From: Terriglobia bacterium
GTDB taxonomy: Bacteria; Acidobacteriota; Terriglobia; 20CM-2-55-15
Reading direction: 5' to 3'
NCBI GenBank assembly: GCA_036496425.1
Contig: DASXLG010000367.1
Span: forward strand, 1-64,000
DNA length: 64,000 nucleotides
The notes under the pieces: generated by a model
What the model saw: only the letters and a program-made list of their open reading frames with translations
What the model was told of the DNA's origin: nothing
The model's database searches: none
Program-made: the position numbers and the translations under genes
Shown: piece after piece, positions 25,337-57,452 of the stretch
How positions within the stretch are numbered: the stretch's first letter is position 1
Layout: each line of letters begins with the position of its first letter

Positions 25337-26242
25337 ATGACTCTAAAGCTGAGCTTCGAAAAAGAGACGGCGTTGGCGATCGCCCGAATCCTGGCTGTCG
25401 CGATTCCGGTTATCCTTGGCGTTACGGCCGCGCCCGTGCTTCGTGCTCAGTCTGCCGAAAAATTCGAAGTCGCTTCGGTCAGGCGTGTGGAGATCCCGGC
25501 TACCGACAGGGGTGTCCCAGTGTTTCTCCCCACGGGTGGCATAGGCACCTCGGACCCGGGCCGCATTACCTACCACGCTACCTGGCTTATTCCATTGATC
25601 GCAGAAGCCTTTGGCGTTCGATCGGACCAGGTTACCGGACCAGCGTGGCTCACCAGAGAACGCTACGACATTGTCGCCAATATTCCCATGGCCGCCACAA
25701 AAGACCAGTTCAACCTCATGCTGGGGAATTTGCTCATCGATCGCTTCCGTCTCCGTTTCCATATGGACTCGACGATTCGCCCGATCTATATGTTGCGCGT
25801 AGGAAAGAACGGGCCGAAAGTCAAACAGATCAAGCACAGCGCTGACGACCCAACGGCAGCACCCGGTCGAATCGGAGCGCTCGACCCGCAGGGCTGTCCG
25901 GTCCTGCCGCCGGCCCGTCAGGGCATCGTCGGCCTGGGAACCGGTCCCGGCGAAATGTGTTGGACGGGGCAAGCCGTCCCAATGGCAGACATTGTGAGAT
26001 TTATCGAGGGCGAGGGCGCCGGCAGGCCCATCGTGGATGAAACCGGCCTCACGGGCCGCTACGATTTCAAGATTCACCTCCAGACGGTCAACCGCGCCCC
26101 TACCCCCGGAGCCGCGCCGGATCCCGCTCCAACCGTCTTCAACTCTGTTGAGGAACAGCTCGGCTTGAAACTGGAGTCCGCTACCCATTCCTTCCCTCAA
26201 CTCATCATTGATTCCATAGAACGCGAGCCGACAGAAAACTGA
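25337..26242 (+). CDS. TIGR03435-family secreted protein
   Basis: A 301-residue protein matching the TIGR03435 family, which is strongly expanded in Solibacter and relatives. Signal peptide at about 12-38 ending VLRAQS. The family hallmarks follow: EKFEVASVRR, then GRITYHATWLIPLIAEAFGV, LTRERYDIVANIP, LLIDRFRLRFHMDS, PIYMLRVGKNGPK and GRPIVDETGLTGRYDFKIHL. It ends with QLGLKLESATHSFPQLIIDS-IEREPTEN. Function is not established; it is usually found with M56-type sensors and secreted proteins, and an M56 gene lies downstream here. Confidence 0.9.
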   Translation: MTLKLSFEKETALAIARILAVAIPVILGVTAAPVLRAQSAEKFEVASVRRVEIPATDRGVPVFLPTGGIGTSDPGRITYHATWLIPLIAEAFGVRSDQVTGPAWLTRERYDIVANIPMAATKDQFNLMLGNLLIDRFRLRFHMDSTIRPIYMLRVGKNGPKVKQIKHSADDPTAAPGRIGALDPQGCPVLPPARQGIVGLGTGPGEMCWTGQAVPMADIVRFIEGEGAGRPIVDETGLTGRYDFKIHLQTVNRAPTPGAAPDPAPTVFNSVEEQLGLKLESATHSFPQLIIDSIEREPTEN

Positions 26243-26342: not shown

Positions 26343-26737
26343 ATTGTCGTGCCGCGACAATCTCCTGGGACGGGTCCAAGCACATTGTCGTGCCGCGACA
26401 ATCTCCTGGGACGGGTCCAAGCACACTGTCGTGCCGCGACAATCTCCTGGGACGGGTCCAAGCACATTGTCGTGCCGCGACAATCTCCTGGGACGGGTCC
26501 AAGCACATTGTCGTGCCGCGACAATCTCCTGGGACGGGTCCAAGCACACTGTCGTCTCACGACAATCTCCTGGGACAGGTCCAAGCACATTGTCGTGCCG
26601 CGACAATCTCCTGGGACGGGTCCAAGCACACTGTCGTGCCGCGACAATCTCCTGGGACGGGTCCAAGCACACTGTCGTCTCACGACAATCTCCTGAGACA
26701 GGTCCAAGCACATTGTCGTCTCGCGACAATCTCCTGA
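26343..26737. repeat. 41-bp tandem repeat array (10 copies)
   Basis: Ten head-to-tail units begin at 26343, 26384, 26425, 26466, 26507, 26548, 26589, 26630, 26671 and 26712 (the last partial). Each unit starts with the hairpin ATTGTCG-TGCCG-CGACAAT, followed by CTCCTGGGACGGGTCCAAGC. Variants are ACTGTCG in the left arm (copies 3, 6, 8, 9) and loops TCTCA (6, 9) or TCTCG (10). There are no unique spacers, so it is not CRISPR. As 41 is not a multiple of 3, the ORFs across it change frame with each unit and are spurious. Confidence 0.95.
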
Positions 26738-26746
26738 ATCTTCTAA

Positions 26747-26797
26747 AAACGGGGACAGAGAGCAATTTCAGAGGGAAATTACTCACTGTCCCCGTTT
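26747..26797. repeat. CTGTCCCC palindrome (REP-like), copy 1
   Basis: AAACGGGGACAG (26747-26758) pairs with CTGTCCCCGTTT (26786-26797); inside, AGCAATTTC faces GAAATTACT. This GGGGACAG...CTGTCCCC form is typical of palindromes mobilised by REP-associated tyrosine transposases (RAYT), though no such gene is in the window. It abuts the tandem array and overlaps the degenerate 3' end of the M56-POTRA gene. Confidence 0.75.
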
Positions 26798-27033
26798 CCC
26801 GGTTCTCTCGGTGGTTTTCTCGTCCTCTTGAATGTTGATCGTCAGGTTGACGGCTTTCTTCTTCTCGTCCAAATCCTGAATGGGGACCGCCACAAAGTTG
26901 AAGAACCCGCGGCTACCGTACATCTTGATTAGTTTGTCGAAATTGTTCCTCAACATCGTCTCGTTGTAGACCTGGCCGGGAACCAGGCCGAGTACACGTC
27001 GGACTTCGTCGGCTGTGAACTGTTTGTTTCCCG
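26783..27033 (-). pseudogene. Out-of-frame POTRA tail of the M56-POTRA gene
   Basis: Immediately after the frameshift at 27026-27041 the other frame reads KQFTADEVRRVLGLVPGQVY, then NETMLRNNFDKLIKMYGSRG, FFNFVAVPIQDLDEKKKAVN and LTINIQEDEK. This is a clear continuation of a BamA-type POTRA domain. It runs into a TGA inside the CTGTCCCC palindrome (26783-26785), so the original 3' end was probably also lost there. It is not reachable from the M56 start without a frame change. Confidence 0.8.
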
Positions 27034-28350
27034 GTTTCCCGTTACTTTGACATCGCCGATCCGATACTGATCGTTCTCTTCGATCTTGATCGTGATGAAA
27101 TATTGATTCTCCAACCTCCGGCCGACCTGGACTCTTTTTACTTCGACAACCGGATCGGGGAGGTTGACGCGGATGTAACCGTGGTCGGCGTAGAGTATCT
27201 TTATCCTGGTCACATCATCCTGCAGCTTCAAATCAGGGGTATCTTTTCCCACCAGCACACTGGAATTGCTCCCTTCCTTGATCAGTTTCATCGCGCCTTT
27301 GATCTGGGCAGCAGTGAAGACATGATTCCCCTGGATATTGATCTTTTGGATTTTGACCTTGGGGGTAACCGTTACCGGTGTCTGTGAGACGTTCTGTGGA
27401 TATGCAGCCGCTGCCACGTATACGAGAGGCGTTCCCAATGCCAGAATCGCTATGATGCTGAAGAGAGTGACTCCGCGCGAACATTTCGTTCCATCCAGAA
27501 TGCGTTGGATGCGATCCTTCTGCCGGCCGTATCGCGCCATCGGAACGCCCTGTAAGCCGGCTCTGCGCACTCCCCGCTGCATGAAGTCCAGCAACATTTC
27601 AGCGTACGCGGCGCGCTCAGGCATTGCAGCGATGGCCGCATCGTCGCTCGCTTCTTCTGCCACCTGTACGATACGCCGGTGAAGGAGCCAGCTCAGGGGG
27701 TCGTGCCACAGCAGAGCCCGATGAATCGCCGAGACGAACTGTACTGCCGGATCGCGGCGACGGACGTGGGAGCACTCATGCGCCAGTACGGCATTGACCT
27801 TTGCGGCGTCCCATTGACGCCAATCGCAAGGAAGCACGACTGCGGGCCGCGAGATCCCGAGTGTCACTGGAGCAGTAATGTCTTCTGATTCACGAACCTC
27901 AATTCCTTCCAGCGCACGATCGGTTGCGCGGCTGTTGCGCAGCAAGTGGATACTGATCGCTATACCTACGCCCAGCCGCAGCATGAGCACCAAAACGCCA
28001 ACGACGTATATCAACAGAGCCGCGCGACCCCAGTTAAGGCGCCCGAATATGCCCCAATTGCGCTGATCCATCCCCATGTCCGCCTGAGGACCTGCAAGCG
28101 ATGCCACTGCCGGACCATCCTGAAGGGCGACCGGTTTTTCAAAACGAGTTGTCATCGACGTCGCGAAGGGAATGCCCGGCAGCACTGCGCCGAGCAGCGG
28201 AATTGCCAGCGATGCGCTCAGTATTACTGTCCAGGCGGCCCAGCGGATCGCGGGGTCCTTTACTCGCGCCGCCAGAAGCAACAGTGCCCCACTCAGGATC
28301 AGAATCGAGGAACGTAACGGCCATTCCACTAAAAAGCTCATGGCTGTCAT
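26950..28350 (-). CDS. M56 (BlaR1-like) membrane peptidase fused to POTRA domain, frameshifted
   Basis: 466 residues as read. The N-terminal ~320 residues form a BlaR1/MecR1-type M56 metallopeptidase with several membrane helices (about 10-25, 38-60, 108-135, 295-318) and the zinc motif NAVLAHECSHVRRRDP. After the last helix comes a BamA-like POTRA domain (VKIQKINIQGNHVFTAAQIK ... YADHGYIRVNLPDP) and the start of a second. The final ~20 residues (RETNSSQPTKSDVYS...) are out-of-frame sequence. An 8-bp tandem duplication (27026-27041) causes this, and removing one copy restores the POTRA reading frame. Its ATG overlaps the stop of a BlaI-like tail, so it was the sensor of a BlaI/BlaR-type pair. 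Confidence 0.75.
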   Translation of the reverse strand: MTAMSFLVEWPLRSSILILSGALLLLAARVKDPAIRWAAWTVILSASLAIPLLGAVLPGIPFATSMTTRFEKPVALQDGPAVASLAGPQADMGMDQRNWGIFGRLNWGRAALLIYVVGVLVLMLRLGVGIAISIHLLRNSRATDRALEGIEVRESEDITAPVTLGISRPAVVLPCDWRQWDAAKVNAVLAHECSHVRRRDPAVQFVSAIHRALLWHDPLSWLLHRRIVQVAEEASDDAAIAAMPERAAYAEMLLDFMQRGVRRAGLQGVPMARYGRQKDRIQRILDGTKCSRGVTLFSIIAILALGTPLVYVAAAAYPQNVSQTPVTVTPKVKIQKINIQGNHVFTAAQIKGAMKLIKEGSNSSVLVGKDTPDLKLQDDVTRIKILYADHGYIRVNLPDPVVEVKRVQVGRRLENQYFITIKIEENDQYRIGDVKVTGNRETNSSQPTKSDVYSAWFPARSTTRRC

Positions 28351-28499
28351 ATTTTCTTTTCCTTTCGCGAGGCAATCTTCGCCGCCAGTCGTTGCAACTG
28401 TTTCGGCTCCAGCAGTTGGTTATCCACCAATCCGACCAGCAACTCTTCCACGGATCCGGCCGACCGCCTGATCGCCGCCGCGGCCGACCGCCACAACAT
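28347..28499 (-). pseudogene. C-terminal remnant of a BlaI/MecI-family repressor
   Basis: The frame ending TGA at 28347 reads GSVEELLVGLVDNQLLEPKQ then LQRLAAKIASRKEKK. This matches the C-terminal dimerisation helix of BlaI/CopY-type winged-helix repressors, which normally sit immediately upstream of M56 sensor genes. It overlaps the M56 start by ATGA, as expected for the pair. The DNA-binding winged helix is missing; upstream sequence is unrelated or degraded. Only 49 codons remain from the nearest ATG. Confidence 0.65.
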
Positions 28500-28697: not shown

Positions 28698-29081
28698 CTA
28701 CGGCCGTTGAAGTCGAGCCAGAAGGGATTGCAATGCCGACAGGTGGCTATCACGCACGCGAACAGAAATCTCGTTGGCTTCGGACTCGTCGTAGACGTGT
28801 GTCGAGGTGTTCCGGTCCTCCAGCATCTTGAGAAACCCGGATTCGCTGACGGTCTCGATCAGTCCCTGCTTGAACGCAGCCTTCAGAACGCCCTTGGGTG
28901 ACGAGACAACAATCCCCTCGTTTTCTGCGAGGTACACCCGCAGCGCTTTCCATGCCAGCTCAAAGGTGAATTCAAAGCGTTGAAGGATGGCGTCCGACCG
29001 GATTGGCGACTCGGGCGCGTTGATGGCTTCGCCGAGACGCCCGGCCGCTTTGGAGAACTTCGATATTGCGAGATCAGACTT
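28698..29081 (-). CDS. HI0074-type HEPN/nucleotidyltransferase-partner protein, no canonical start codon
   Basis: The open frame (about 125 codons) reads DLAISKFSKAAGRLGEAI, RSDAILQRFEFTFELAWKAL, RVYLAENEGIVVSSPKGVLK, then MLEDRNTSTHVYDE. This is the HI0074/HepT-like fold. RNTSTH fits the HEPN R-x4-H motif, the ribonuclease centre of HEPN toxins. It follows the MNT gene with overlapping reading frames, as in MNT/HEPN (HepT-MntA) toxin-antitoxin pairs. No ATG, GTG or TTG occurs in this frame before the GTG at 28937, which would remove the N-terminal helices. It is therefore inactivated, read from a rare start, or made by coupled translation from the MNT gene. Confidence 0.72.
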   Translation of the reverse strand, partial: KSDLAISKFSKAAGRLGEAINAPESPIRSDAILQRFEFTFELAWKALRVYLAENEGIVVSSPKGVLKAAFKQGLIETVSESGFLKMLEDRNTSTHVYDESEANEISVRVRDSHLSALQSLLARLQRP

Positions 29082-29388
29082 TTCGCTCGTAAACGACCTT
29101 TCCCGTATTCAGGATGAGATTCCGTAAGCCGGGTTCGACGTCCGGCAAGTAAACGATATCGACGCTGTAAAGACCCACAGAATCATTGACCGCTTCGCGG
29201 ATACGGTATGCCTTGTCGGGCGGCTTGGGCGCGTCGACAGCAAGATCGAAATCCGAGCCCGGCCTATGCGTGCCCTCAGCCCGCGATCCGAACAGGAGGA
29301 TCCGCCGCGGATCGATTTCGTGTTTCAGTATCGATACAGCAATCTGCAGCACTTCGTCTTCTCTCTCGGACATCTCAACGGCAGGCAT
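29074..29388 (-). CDS. Minimal nucleotidyltransferase (MNT), antitoxin-type
   Basis: A 104-residue MNT-family protein with the signature LLFGSRAEGTHRPGSDFDLA (GSx-x10-DxD) and a third acidic strand in YSVDIVYLPD. Such proteins pair with HEPN proteins; in the HepT/MntA type the MNT AMPylates the toxin next to its active site. Start chosen at MPAVEMSERED (29388) with GGAG upstream; Met at 29373 is the alternative. The stop overlaps the following HEPN-like reading frame. A toxin-antitoxin role is inference from family and pairing. Confidence 0.82.
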   Translation of the reverse strand: MPAVEMSEREDEVLQIAVSILKHEIDPRRILLFGSRAEGTHRPGSDFDLAVDAPKPPDKAYRIREAVNDSVGLYSVDIVYLPDVEPGLRNLILNTGKVVYERKV

Positions 29389-29535
29389 GACGGGTCTTCT
29401 CCGCAATCCATCTACAGTCTGGCTCAGCCCTGAACCTCAGGCAAGCGGACTTTCGGGAAATACAACGCAATCCCTGATATTTTTGACTACGGGAAAGGGC
29501 GGTGGCAATTACTACGCTACCCATGGAAAAGCGAA

Positions 29536-42710: not shown

Positions 42711-43486
42711 TATTTGTCGATCCAGGGTGGCTTCTGATGATCCAGAAAGGCCTGCATGCCGCGCTGCCCTTCGGTGCCCGTGCGGGCCTGCGCGATCGCC
42801 TCGGCGGCAAACTCCAGCGAGCTTTCGAGCGTGCGGGCGGCGACGCCGAAGATCAGATCTTTCGCCGCGCCGATCGCTCCGGGCGCCGATGTCAGGATCT
42901 GGGAAACTTTCGACTCGACCAGCGCGTCGAGGGCGGCTTCGTGCGAAACAACATGCTGAATCAGGCCGATGCTCATCGCCACGGGGGCGAGAAAACGCTC
43001 GCCGGTGATGAAGAACTCCCTGGCGCGCCCCGGCCCTACACGCGCGATGACGAATGGAGAAATGATCGCCGGAATGATGCCGAGTTTTACTTCGGTAAAC
43101 CCGAATTGCGCGGACTCGAGAGCCACGCCGATATCACATGCAGCAACCAGCCCGGCGCCTCCGCCAAGCGCAGCGCCGTGGACGCGGGCGATTACCGGCT
43201 TCGGACACTTCGCGATCGCCAGATACATGCGGCCGAGAGCGCGCGCATCCGCCAGGTTCTCTTCGTAGGTGTATTGAACCATCCCCTTCATCCAGTTCAG
43301 ATCCGCGCCGGCACAGAACGACTTGCCGTTTCCGGCCAGAACGATCACGCGAACATCGTCGCGGCGGCCGAGCTCGATGAACTCATCGGTGACCTGTTTG
43401 ATCAGTTCGTCGTTGAATGCATTGTGGACGTCGGGACGGTCGAGGAAGACAAAAGCGACCTTCTTGTGGATATCAATCTTCAACAT
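42710..43486 (-). CDS. Enoyl-CoA hydratase, methylglutaconyl-CoA hydratase-like
   Basis: A 258-residue crotonase-fold enzyme. NGKSFCAGADLNWMKGM (oxyanion loop), VHGAALGGGAGLVAACDIGV with the FGFTEVKLGIIPAIISPFV strand match the LiuC/AUH group that hydrates 3-methylglutaconyl-CoA to HMG-CoA. Start taken at MLKIDIHKK (43486); the 15-codon longer form would be encoded by a tandem 45-bp repeat and is rejected. Its stop overlaps the carboxylase ATG (TAATG). Confidence 0.85.
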   Translation of the reverse strand: MLKIDIHKKVAFVFLDRPDVHNAFNDELIKQVTDEFIELGRRDDVRVIVLAGNGKSFCAGADLNWMKGMVQYTYEENLADARALGRMYLAIAKCPKPVIARVHGAALGGGAGLVAACDIGVALESAQFGFTEVKLGIIPAIISPFVIARVGPGRAREFFITGERFLAPVAMSIGLIQHVVSHEAALDALVESKVSQILTSAPGAIGAAKDLIFGVAARTLESSLEFAAEAIAQARTGTEGQRGMQAFLDHQKPPWIDK

Positions 43487-43576
43487 CTGGTACACGCTGC
43501 GCCCTGGCGGGCTTGCATTCGCTCCGCTCATCTAGTACACGCTGCGCCCTGGCGGGCTTGCATTCGCTCCGCTCAT
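43487..43576. repeat. 45-bp tandem duplicate (ATTCGCTCCGCTCAT family), locus 1
   Basis: Two adjacent 45-bp units (43487-43531 and 43532-43576) differ at one base. Each runs CTGGTACACGCTGCGCCCTG ... GCATTCGCTCCGCTCAT. They lie exactly between the hydratase start and the carboxyltransferase stop. Units with the same period and the same terminal ATTCGCTCCGCTCA occur at 56716-56805. Confidence 0.92.
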
Positions 43577-43581
43577 GTAGG

Positions 43582-55358: not shown

Positions 55359-56716
55359 TCGTAGACTCCGTGGGCGTACCAGCGATCCAGATGGACGTCG
55401 TAATAGATACGGTAAAGCGCATCGAGGACCTCGATATCCCATTCCTCGCGATCCCATGTGTTGGGCCGCCACCAGTCACCCGACGTGCGCCACGGTCCGC
55501 TCGCTGTGGCCACCGGTCCATGCTTGCCATGCCACGCGATCCAGCTGGGGATGCCGCCGCGCAGTTGGACGGTGGCTTCGAGCGGCGGGCGGAAAACACG
55601 ACAGGATAGATTGCTCTCCCCGCTCAAGGGCCGGAGGCCCGACAGAGTGTAGCCCCAGCCGTAAGGCTGGGGTGAACGGTCTGTAACAGCGGGCAGCGCC
55701 GGAGGTGTGTAAGTCGGGCCTCCGGCCCTGTTGGGCAACAGGCCCGTAGCGCCCGCGGCACTCGAGAACCTCTTGACTGCAATCCCATCCGGGCGATGCG
55801 TATCCAGAATCTCCGGCGCACCGACATTCTCCTCACCCACCACCGCCTTCAACCGCGCTAACGTCAGCTCCAGTTTTTCCGGCTCCGGCGAGAGCGGCAC
55901 GAACAACCCGTTCTGCACCACGCGCGGTTTTGCCGGAATTGCTTCCAGCTCCACTCGGCGAATCGCCTCCCGGGCCGGATGCGCTTCCAGATCCAGGGTC
56001 AGGAGCCGCGTCAGCAGCCGCGCATTCCTTACAGGCAGCGGCAGATTCAAAACCCGCAAATACTTTCCCAGCGCCAGCCGCACTTCATGCGTTGCGAGAT
56101 TCCTCGATCGCATCCGCGAGCAGATCTGTTCCAGCATTCGCGACAAAATGAATGTCAGCGGCTCGATCGTCGTGATTTCATAATCCAGTTCCAGGACTTC
56201 CACGAATCGAACCGGATCCACGTGCGGCACCAGCGTGCGGGCGCCAGAGCCGCGCGCCATCTTGTGAAGCTTGGCGCCGTCCTGGCCAAGACGCTCCGCC
56301 ACCTGAATCGGCGGGAGTTGCGCAAATGCGCCGAGCGTGCGGATGCCCCAGCGGTCGAGCGTTTCCAGAATTTCGGAAGAAGGGGACAGAACCTGCAGCG
56401 GGAGATGGTTCAATCGCGCCGCTTCGGTTCCGCGATTCACAACCGTGATGCCGCTGAACCCGCGCGCGGCGCAGATGGCCGCATCCGCATTCGCCGCCAG
56501 CGCGATATTGGCCTGGATGCCGCGTTCGCGCACCCGTTCGGCGACCTGCTCGGCAATCTGCGGATACGATCCGAAAAGCCGCTCCAGTCCTTCCGCATCG
56601 AAAACAACGGTACCGGTCGATGTCTTTTCCACGCGCGGCGAGAACGCGGCCGCGCAGTCGAGCAGGATGGCATCCGTTTCAGCGGATGCATTCGGAATAT
56701 AGATGCACGCGAACAT
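55355..56716 (-). CDS. imuB: Y-family polymerase-like protein ImuB, with in-frame repeat insertion
   Basis: A 453-residue non-catalytic Y-family relative: FACIYIPNASAET replaces the acidic palm start, FDAEGLERLFGSYPQIAEQV is the usual second motif, and the HhH-type GIRTLGAFAQLPPIQVAERL and little-finger region follow. Between FSSAAGATGLLP and LSGESNLSCRVFRPPLEATV a stretch of ~34 residues (NRAGGPTYTPPALPAVTDRS, PQPYGWGYTLSGLRP) is encoded by a 103-bp inverted-repeat element and has no counterpart in the family. ImuB is the hub that binds ImuA, DnaE2 and the beta clamp. Start at 56716 within the 45-bp repeat boundary. Confidence 0.88.
   Translation of the reverse strand: MFACIYIPNASAETDAILLDCAAAFSPRVEKTSTGTVVFDAEGLERLFGSYPQIAEQVAERVRERGIQANIALAANADAAICAARGFSGITVVNRGTEAARLNHLPLQVLSPSSEILETLDRWGIRTLGAFAQLPPIQVAERLGQDGAKLHKMARGSGARTLVPHVDPVRFVEVLELDYEITTIEPLTFILSRMLEQICSRMRSRNLATHEVRLALGKYLRVLNLPLPVRNARLLTRLLTLDLEAHPAREAIRRVELEAIPAKPRVVQNGLFVPLSPEPEKLELTLARLKAVVGEENVGAPEILDTHRPDGIAVKRFSSAAGATGLLPNRAGGPTYTPPALPAVTDRSPQPYGWGYTLSGLRPLSGESNLSCRVFRPPLEATVQLRGGIPSWIAWHGKHGPVATASGPWRTSGDWWRPNTWDREEWDIEVLDALYRIYYDVHLDRWYAHGVYD
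55627..55729. repeat. 103-bp inverted-repeat element inside imuB
   Basis: Perfect 17-bp terminal inverted repeats AGGGCCGGAGGCCCGAC (55627-55643) and GTCGGGCCTCCGGCCCT (55713-55729), with an internal hairpin CCCCAGCC-GTAA-GGCTGGGG. The reading frame of imuB passes through without a stop. It appears to be a palindromic repeat that has inserted into a coding region and been kept in frame, comparable in kind to the protein-embedded palindromic elements of Rickettsia. Confidence 0.85.
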
Positions 56717-57452
56717 GAGTTACTGGTTTCGCCCTGTCGGGCGCATATTCGCTCCGCTCATGAGTTAGTGGTTTCGCCCTGTCGGACTCACATTCGCTCC
56801 GCTCATGGGATTTCAAAGAGCGTGGCCTGCGGGAGCGCACCACTTCGATATTCAAATTCAAGCCGTCCAGAAGGGTCGACCATTCCGCGCCACTGGTTTT
56901 CATTCGGAGCACGAGTGCGGCGGCGGATTTGACGATACTGTCGGAACTGATGACAACGAGCGCAGTCGGCGTCTTCTCGATCGTGCGTTGAAATCGGAAC
57001 CACGATGCCAGGGAGATCGATTGAACGTGCGGCAGCGGAAGATCCGTCAGATCCATCACCACGCGGCCGAAACCGCCGCCCTGCAGCAACAGATCCGTGG
57101 ATTTCAGAACCTGATCGAGTTTGTGGCAGCGCACCCACAACAAACGCTGCAAGTCCAGGCCAGCGGCCGCCGCCGATTTCGGATCGAACGCGTCCGTTCC
57201 ATCCACCAGCGCACAGACTTCATCGCCGGCCGTGGCTTCCACAAGGATGGACACCATGGCCGACGTGCGTCCGGATGTCGGCGGGCCAAAAATTTCGGTG
57301 ATGGCGCCGCGGGGCAGTCCTCCCGTCAGCGTGTCCAAGGGTGCGATTCCTGTCGGAACGCTTTCGAGAACACGTCGGTCGAGGTCGGTAAATGGCAATG
57401 GAACCCGTTCACTCAAGGCGGATTCCAACCGGGAGCGGATCACTGATTGCAT
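56679..57452 (-). CDS. imuA: RecA-like mutasome protein ImuA
   Basis: A 257-residue RecA-fold protein: GIAPLDTLTGGLPRGAITEI, then Walker A GPPTSGRTSAM, later VRCHKLDQVLKSTDLLLQGG and GFGRVVMDLTDLPLPHVQSI. ImuA is required with ImuB and DnaE2 for damage-induced mutagenesis. Start at MQSVIRSRLE (57452). The C-terminal ~45 residues from SHERSECESDRAK onward are encoded by the two 45-bp repeat units and sequence beyond them, and overlap imuB by 38 bases. Stops in the other frames fall at the repeat boundary, so the ancestral C-terminus probably ended near RSRRPRSL. Confidence 0.85.
   Translation of the reverse strand: MQSVIRSRLESALSERVPLPFTDLDRRVLESVPTGIAPLDTLTGGLPRGAITEIFGPPTSGRTSAMVSILVEATAGDEVCALVDGTDAFDPKSAAAAGLDLQRLLWVRCHKLDQVLKSTDLLLQGGGFGRVVMDLTDLPLPHVQSISLASWFRFQRTIEKTPTALVVISSDSIVKSAAALVLRMKTSGAEWSTLLDGLNLNIEVVRSRRPRSLKSHERSECESDRAKPLTHERSEYAPDRAKPVTHVRVHLYSECIR
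56716..56805. repeat. 45-bp tandem duplicate (ATTCGCTCCGCTCAT family), locus 2
   Basis: Units 56716-56760 and 56761-56805, each TGAGTTASTGGTTTCGCCCT ... ATTCGCTCCGCTCA, differing at a few positions. Same period and same last 14 bases as the pair at 43487-43576. It lies at the imuA/imuB junction; it contributes the ImuA C-terminus and reaches the first base of the imuB start codon. Confidence 0.9.

Follow-up and report, generated by a model that had tools for sequence, protein, structure and literature searches.

An M56 peptidase of BlaR1 type fused to POTRA domains of BamA in a Terriglobia genome

Introduction

What would a membrane protease of the BlaR1 type do with the POTRA domains of BamA, and does the protein that joins them still work? 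The question is raised by an open reading frame in a stretch of 64,000 nucleotides from a Terriglobia bacterium (contig DASXLG010000367.1, positions 1 to 64,000), referred to here as the window. An earlier note, made from the letters of the sequence, had described an M56 sensor protease followed by two POTRA-like modules, the second of them lying across a frameshift. It had suggested that the protein sensed outer-membrane assembly or unfolded beta-barrels and was coupled to a BlaI repressor. The source genome, in 407 contigs and with 4.2% contamination, is a fragmented one, consistent with a metagenome-assembled genome; its relatives are soil Acidobacteria gp5 genomes. The features of the locus are collected in Table 1.

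Table 1. Features of the M56-POTRA locus, in window coordinates.
Feature	Position	Strand	Basis or remark
REP-like palindromic element, 23-nt arms, AAACGGGGACAG...	26747..26797		Inverted repeat and motif match
POTRA4 of BamA, shifted frame	26822..27034	-	PF07244, BamA HMM, E. coli BamA 280-343
8-bp tandem duplication, CGGGAAAC x2	27026..27041	-	Shifts the frame in the first strand of POTRA4
POTRA3 of BamA, in frame with M56	27031..27357	-	PF07244, BamA HMM, E. coli BamA 175-283
Linker after TM4	27358..27390	-	About residues 321-331; between the M56 and POTRA matches
M56 membrane metalloprotease domain (BlaR1/MecR1-type)	27391..28350	-	Residues 1-320; Pfam PF05569
blaI C-terminal stub, about 35 codons, GSVEELLVGLVDNQLLEPKQLQRLAAKIASRKEKK	28353..28457	-	tblastn

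The M56 peptidase domain

The fusion frame (28350-26950, minus strand) starts with ATG and encodes 466 amino acids. Its N-terminal part is a genuine M56 peptidase with a complete gluzincin set. The Pfam match to Peptidase_M56 covers residues 96-271 (E 1.2e-19; 71 bits against a curated cut-off of 31), and transmembrane helices are predicted at residues 3-27, 33-56, 107-138 and 296-315. The zinc site is made up of H191-E-C-S-H195 and E232-x-x-x-D236, together with D200 and Y249. The catalytic columns (H191, E192, H195, E232, D236, D200 and Y249) are invariant in alignment A4. A cryo-EM study of BlaR1 defined its site by the same elements, HExxH and ExxxD supported by an Asp and a Tyr, and placed the protease toward the cytoplasm and the C-terminal domain outside (PMC9834060).

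Comparison with solved structures leads to the same protein. A profile search of the PDB aligned the M56 half with the S. aureus BlaR1 structures 8EXP/8EXS at an E-value of about 1e-9. The AlphaFold model, with a pLDDT mostly of 80-92 in the M56 core, matched 8exp in Foldseek (E 3.9e-7, probability 1.00), and all six of its top Foldseek matches were BlaR1. By homology with the BlaR1 topology, the linker and the tail of the window fusion should be periplasmic. No match to a transpeptidase or penicillin-binding sensor domain was obtained in the C-terminus, which consists of POTRA sequence.

The BamA POTRA tail

The first POTRA match (PF07244) covers residues 332-425 of the 466-residue frame (E 6.6e-8, 33.6 bits), and the second lies in the next frame at 26825-27031 (E 2.3e-14, 54.3 bits), the Pfam cut-off being 21.3 bits. 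Together with the M56 match, these establish as real the fusion that had been described from the letters. In phmmer searches of the PDB, residues 332-446 aligned with residues 175-283 of E. coli BamA (E about 3e-8) and the shifted-frame piece with residues 280-343 (E about 5e-4). As these matches are consecutive, the two frames are collinear over one POTRA3-POTRA4 unit of BamA. An acidobacterial BamA HMM built from relatives assigned the in-frame stretch to columns 162-301 and the shifted-frame POTRA4 to columns 294-365 (E 2.2e-27). On these alignments, the tail modules are specifically POTRA3 and POTRA4 of BamA and not generic POTRA domains.

AlphaFold modelled the tail at low confidence (pLDDT about 42) from a shallow alignment, and the claim of a POTRA fold thus rests on homology to the solved POTRA structures of BamA. 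No beta-barrel of the Omp85 kind follows the POTRA units, as the frame stops after POTRA4 and the REP-like element comes next.

The BamA nearest in identity is a copy in the same genome (G000, contig C165), which shares 67% of amino acids with the POTRA3 piece over 109 codons and 63% with the POTRA4 piece. A chimera with the genome's own bamA was considered and rejected. The tail shares no more than 67% of its amino acids with any BamA compared, the genome's own copies included, and so is not a stray piece of these. Trees of the short POTRA3 and POTRA4 pieces did not single out a donor BamA. Codon differences from the C165 copy fall mostly at third positions (30/23/54 and 18/13/38 for positions 1/2/3), and the tail retains conserved sites to about the same degree as divergent genuine BamAs do, on the far side of the frameshift as well. 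The codon pattern fits long coding constraint, whether selection acted before or after capture.

The frameshift, the blaI remnant and their surroundings

The second POTRA module does lie across a frameshift, and the break is where the earlier note had placed it. Its cause is an exact direct repeat, CGGGAAAC CGGGAAAC, which is the sole match in the window and was found in 0 of 100 shuffles. The last codons of the shifted frame (KRGQ) and its stop come from the REP-like palindrome, the arms of which are 91% complementary. Because the frameshift swaps most of POTRA4 for unrelated residues, the encoded receptor would be without most of this module. Past the frameshift, the conservation of POTRA4 at codon level is still roughly on a par with that in divergent genuine BamA genes, so the break in the window looks young.

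The blaI stub covers residues 109-158 of BlaI only, with E-values of 4e-7 and 3e-4 against the intact BlaI of genomes G002 and G003. With the same two proteins as tblastn queries, no other part of BlaI, the DNA-binding N-terminal part included, was found beside the stub. A complete BlaI repressor gene adjoining the fusion is not present within the window. The place of the missing part is occupied by unrelated sequence with a nucleotidyltransferase pair of MNT/HEPN type. This pair (28701-29406, minus strand) consists of a nucleotidyltransferase substrate-binding protein (PF08780, E 3.9e-25) and an NTP_transf_2/Polbeta nucleotidyltransferase (E 3.8e-14). Since POTRA4 is frame-broken and blaI has lost its DNA-binding part, the circuit in the window is dead or damaged. 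The proposed coupling to BlaI holds for the ancestral arrangement and fails for the window, where only the last ~35 residues remain, without the DNA-binding domain; in G003 a complete blaI still adjoins the fusion.

Several other elements are seen in the surroundings. A minisatellite at 26343-26736, just 3' of the fusion gene, contains 9.6 copies of a 41-bp unit with a perfect hairpin (TTGTCGTGCCGCGACAA). The same genome has a related array on contig C198, and no match to the minisatellite was found in the four congeners searched. A free-standing DUF3738 (TIGR03435) protein is encoded at 25337-26239 on the plus strand, convergent with the M56 gene; DUF3738 is also a common tail on other M56 proteins of the class. 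Two different pairs of 45-bp tandem units, at 43484-43580 and 56714-56807, have a common, REP-like end (CATTCGCTCCGCT).

Occurrence of the fusion

The domain-architecture search for M56 plus POTRA that had been advised with the original observation returned one further fusion, in G003. A combined profile of M56 and POTRA3-4 was applied to 399 genomes from the class and 376 from the phylum. In each genome, the strict-threshold searches scored the best three or four candidates; a frame-broken fusion could escape where separate hits alone were scored. Among the scored candidates of these 399 and 376 genomes, none was an intact M56-BamA POTRA protein. The expectation of an intact homologue with this architecture was thus not borne out in the genomes searched, as the sole other fusion is broken too. 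G003 is itself one row of the combined profile, but Pfam, tblastn and the BamA HMM also picked out its POTRA part independently. The BamA HMM, applied to 196 fetched loci in all frames, gave no third fusion. With the window protein as query, the relatives were M56-only or BamA-only, except for G003. A widespread M56-POTRA architecture was rejected for the genomes sampled, the combined profile having given just the window and G003.

One intact M56 protein of 463 residues (G053, locus L119:715-2103, minus strand) is sister to the M56 of the G003 fusion and has a tail of ~90 residues with a POTRA-like pattern by eye. As a POTRA-like tail it was rejected, with no Pfam hit and an hhalign probability of only 11.5%, and it is kept as a weak lead. 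In the open-access literature, no paper was found on M56 with DUF3738, or on M56 domain architecture with BlaI. BlaR1 and POTRA occur together there in just a beta-lactamase review, each word once.

The second fusion and the diversity of M56 tails

The second fusion, on contig C416 of G003, belongs to the same genus and joins M56 to POTRA1-2 of BamA. It is the only other M56-BamA fusion found. Its frame is broken by an internal deletion of several tens of codons and a frameshift, and the complete blaI that adjoins it matches Penicillinase_R at an E-value of 2.2e-31. The POTRA part covers columns 4-166 of the BamA HMM, and that of the window columns 162-365. The two M56 domains are 30% identical. 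In a tree of 102 M56 domains, that of the window groups with G167, G151, G136, G358 and G197 (support 100/100) and that of G003 with G053, G145, G084 and others (support 100/98).

Since the M56 domains lie in separate supported clades and the POTRA units differ, BamA POTRA pairs were captured at least twice, by different M56 receptors. By this tree and these alignments, M56-BamA fusions arose at least two times independently in the genus. One common origin of both fusions is unsupported, given the separate well-supported clades and the different POTRA units. Both fusions hold exactly two POTRA units, and each of their four ends coincides with a POTRA boundary or is no more than a few residues away from one. 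In the authors' informal judgement, chance breakpoints would not readily give ends placed in this way.

Other tails are common in the same family. The M56 clades of the window and of G003 include ankyrin and DUF3738 tails (Pfam) and, by eye, coiled-coil repeats and TonB_C-like and TPR-like tails. Inspection by eye of 109 distinct M56 ORFs (L001-L196) gave TonB_C, DUF3738, ankyrin, TPR and coiled coil, as well as GWxTD-like, HlyD-like and SGNH-like tails. Judged from sequence, M56 proteins have, after TM4, a slot in which tails are exchanged, and the diversity of acidobacterial tails suggests a large family of envelope sensors.

Origin and state of the window fusion

The locus is probably a damaged remnant of an envelope-sensing pair of BlaR1/BlaI type, in which the sensor module of the M56 protein was replaced by POTRA3-4 of BamA. 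It is also conceivable, though somewhat unlikely, that a bamA fragment and an M56 gene recombined by accident, without any sensing function, and that the product decayed as a plain pseudogene. Such an accident would agree with the breakage of both copies (by the 8-bp duplication in the window, by deletion and frameshift in G003), with the truncated blaI of the window and with the REP-like element and minisatellite at the 3' end. The confinement of the fusions to one genus among the genomes searched would also be expected of it. However, an accident accounts poorly for two independent events that each took exactly two POTRA units with ends at or near POTRA boundaries. The coding positions of the tail are moreover conserved like those of divergent genuine BamA copies, also past the frameshift, and the catalytic residues of M56 are all intact.

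These intact residues, the open frame of 466 codons and the complete POTRA3 are what a still working receptor of M56 plus POTRA3 would need, and slippage can make and undo exact 8-bp tandem duplications, so that the repeat might act as a phase-variable switch of the POTRA4 end. Either version is quite unlikely. The frameshifted end puts unrelated residues over most of POTRA4 and the BlaI partner is gone, while the repeat has only two units and the break in G003 is a deletion, which would not revert. A fragmented and contaminated genome also brings to mind misjoined metagenomic reads as the source of the M56-BamA junction or of the frameshift. An artefact of this kind is highly improbable, as a like fusion, built from another M56 and other POTRA units, is carried by a second genome, and an exact 8-bp duplication is untypical of read errors.

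Proposed mechanism and significance

In the remnant reading, POTRA3-4 would have been copied from BamA in place of the periplasmic sensor that an M56 antirepressor protease carried. The intact form would have held its four-helix M56 domain in the inner membrane, with the zinc site cytoplasmic and both POTRA modules periplasmic. The best reading of the swapped-in tail is that it may have kept watch over the BAM machinery or over nascent outer-membrane proteins. It would pair with a BAM component, SurA or an unassembled outer-membrane protein, probably by beta-augmentation. Binding or release of the tail would act through the membrane domain on the zinc site and so switch the protease; cleavage of BlaI and de-repression would follow, as in BlaR1. 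For the window fusion, the topology is modelled on that of BlaR1, and the ligand, the direction of switching and the target genes are put forward as proposals.

It has been reported that POTRA3 binds BamB, and beta-augmentation has been proposed as a binding mode of POTRA domains (PMC12772190). BamB and TamB contacts have also been described (PMC11361582). The first three POTRA domains were dispensable for folding in a single-turnover assay (PMC12772190), and for this reason the substrate-binding role of POTRA3 is debated.

A wider proposal is that M56 proteins with BamA-derived POTRA domains form a recurrent class of receptors for surveillance of outer-membrane assembly in Acidobacteria, in which an inner-membrane protease would read BAM occupancy through periplasmic docking modules copied from BAM as a decoy and report it via BlaI. 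This is considered unlikely. A membrane-tethered decoy would compete with BAM, and the class may thus be gained and silenced repeatedly.

Known envelope-stress sensors of misassembled outer-membrane proteins, such as DegS, read C-terminal peptides. If the remnant reading is true, an M56 protease that uses the POTRA docking modules of BamA itself would read the state of the assembly machinery by another route. The M56 proteins of Acidobacteria have the look of a one-component envelope sensor of general use in which the tail can be exchanged, and the sensing of beta-lactams is one instance of it. That both copies found are damaged makes the window locus less valuable.

Comparison with known systems

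The BlaR1/MecR1 proteins of S. aureus share with the window fusion the four transmembrane helices around a gluzincin zinc site (HExxH and ExxxD, with Asp and Tyr). They also share a C-terminal sensor on the outer face, by homology in the case of the window, and a BlaI-type repressor gene directly upstream, which is a stub in the window and complete in G003. Unlike BlaR1/MecR1, the window protein has POTRA3-4 of BamA as its sensor and not a penicillin-binding domain, is without a beta-lactam site and is present as a damaged copy.

The likeness of the tail to BamA (Omp85) is one of direct homology, in the register of residues 175-343 of E. coli BamA. In contrast to BamA, the fusion is without POTRA1, 2 and 5 and without the beta-barrel, and is by homology tethered to the inner membrane. 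The tail also differs from the POTRA3 of acidobacterial BamA in that it is without the proline-rich loop (around PPFPWGIPIPFWKK).

Acidobacterial M56 proteins with DUF3738 (TIGR03435), TonB_C, ankyrin, TPR or coiled-coil tails belong to the same M56 family as the window protein, the nearest of them with 49-61% identity over the membrane domain. They resemble it in the swap of the tail after TM4 and in a BlaI gene upstream where examined, and differ in their sensor module. The fusion of G003 has in common with that of the window an M56 domain followed by two BamA POTRA units, BlaI upstream and a broken frame. It differs from the window fusion in having POTRA1-2 and not POTRA3-4, an M56 domain of another clade and a complete blaI.
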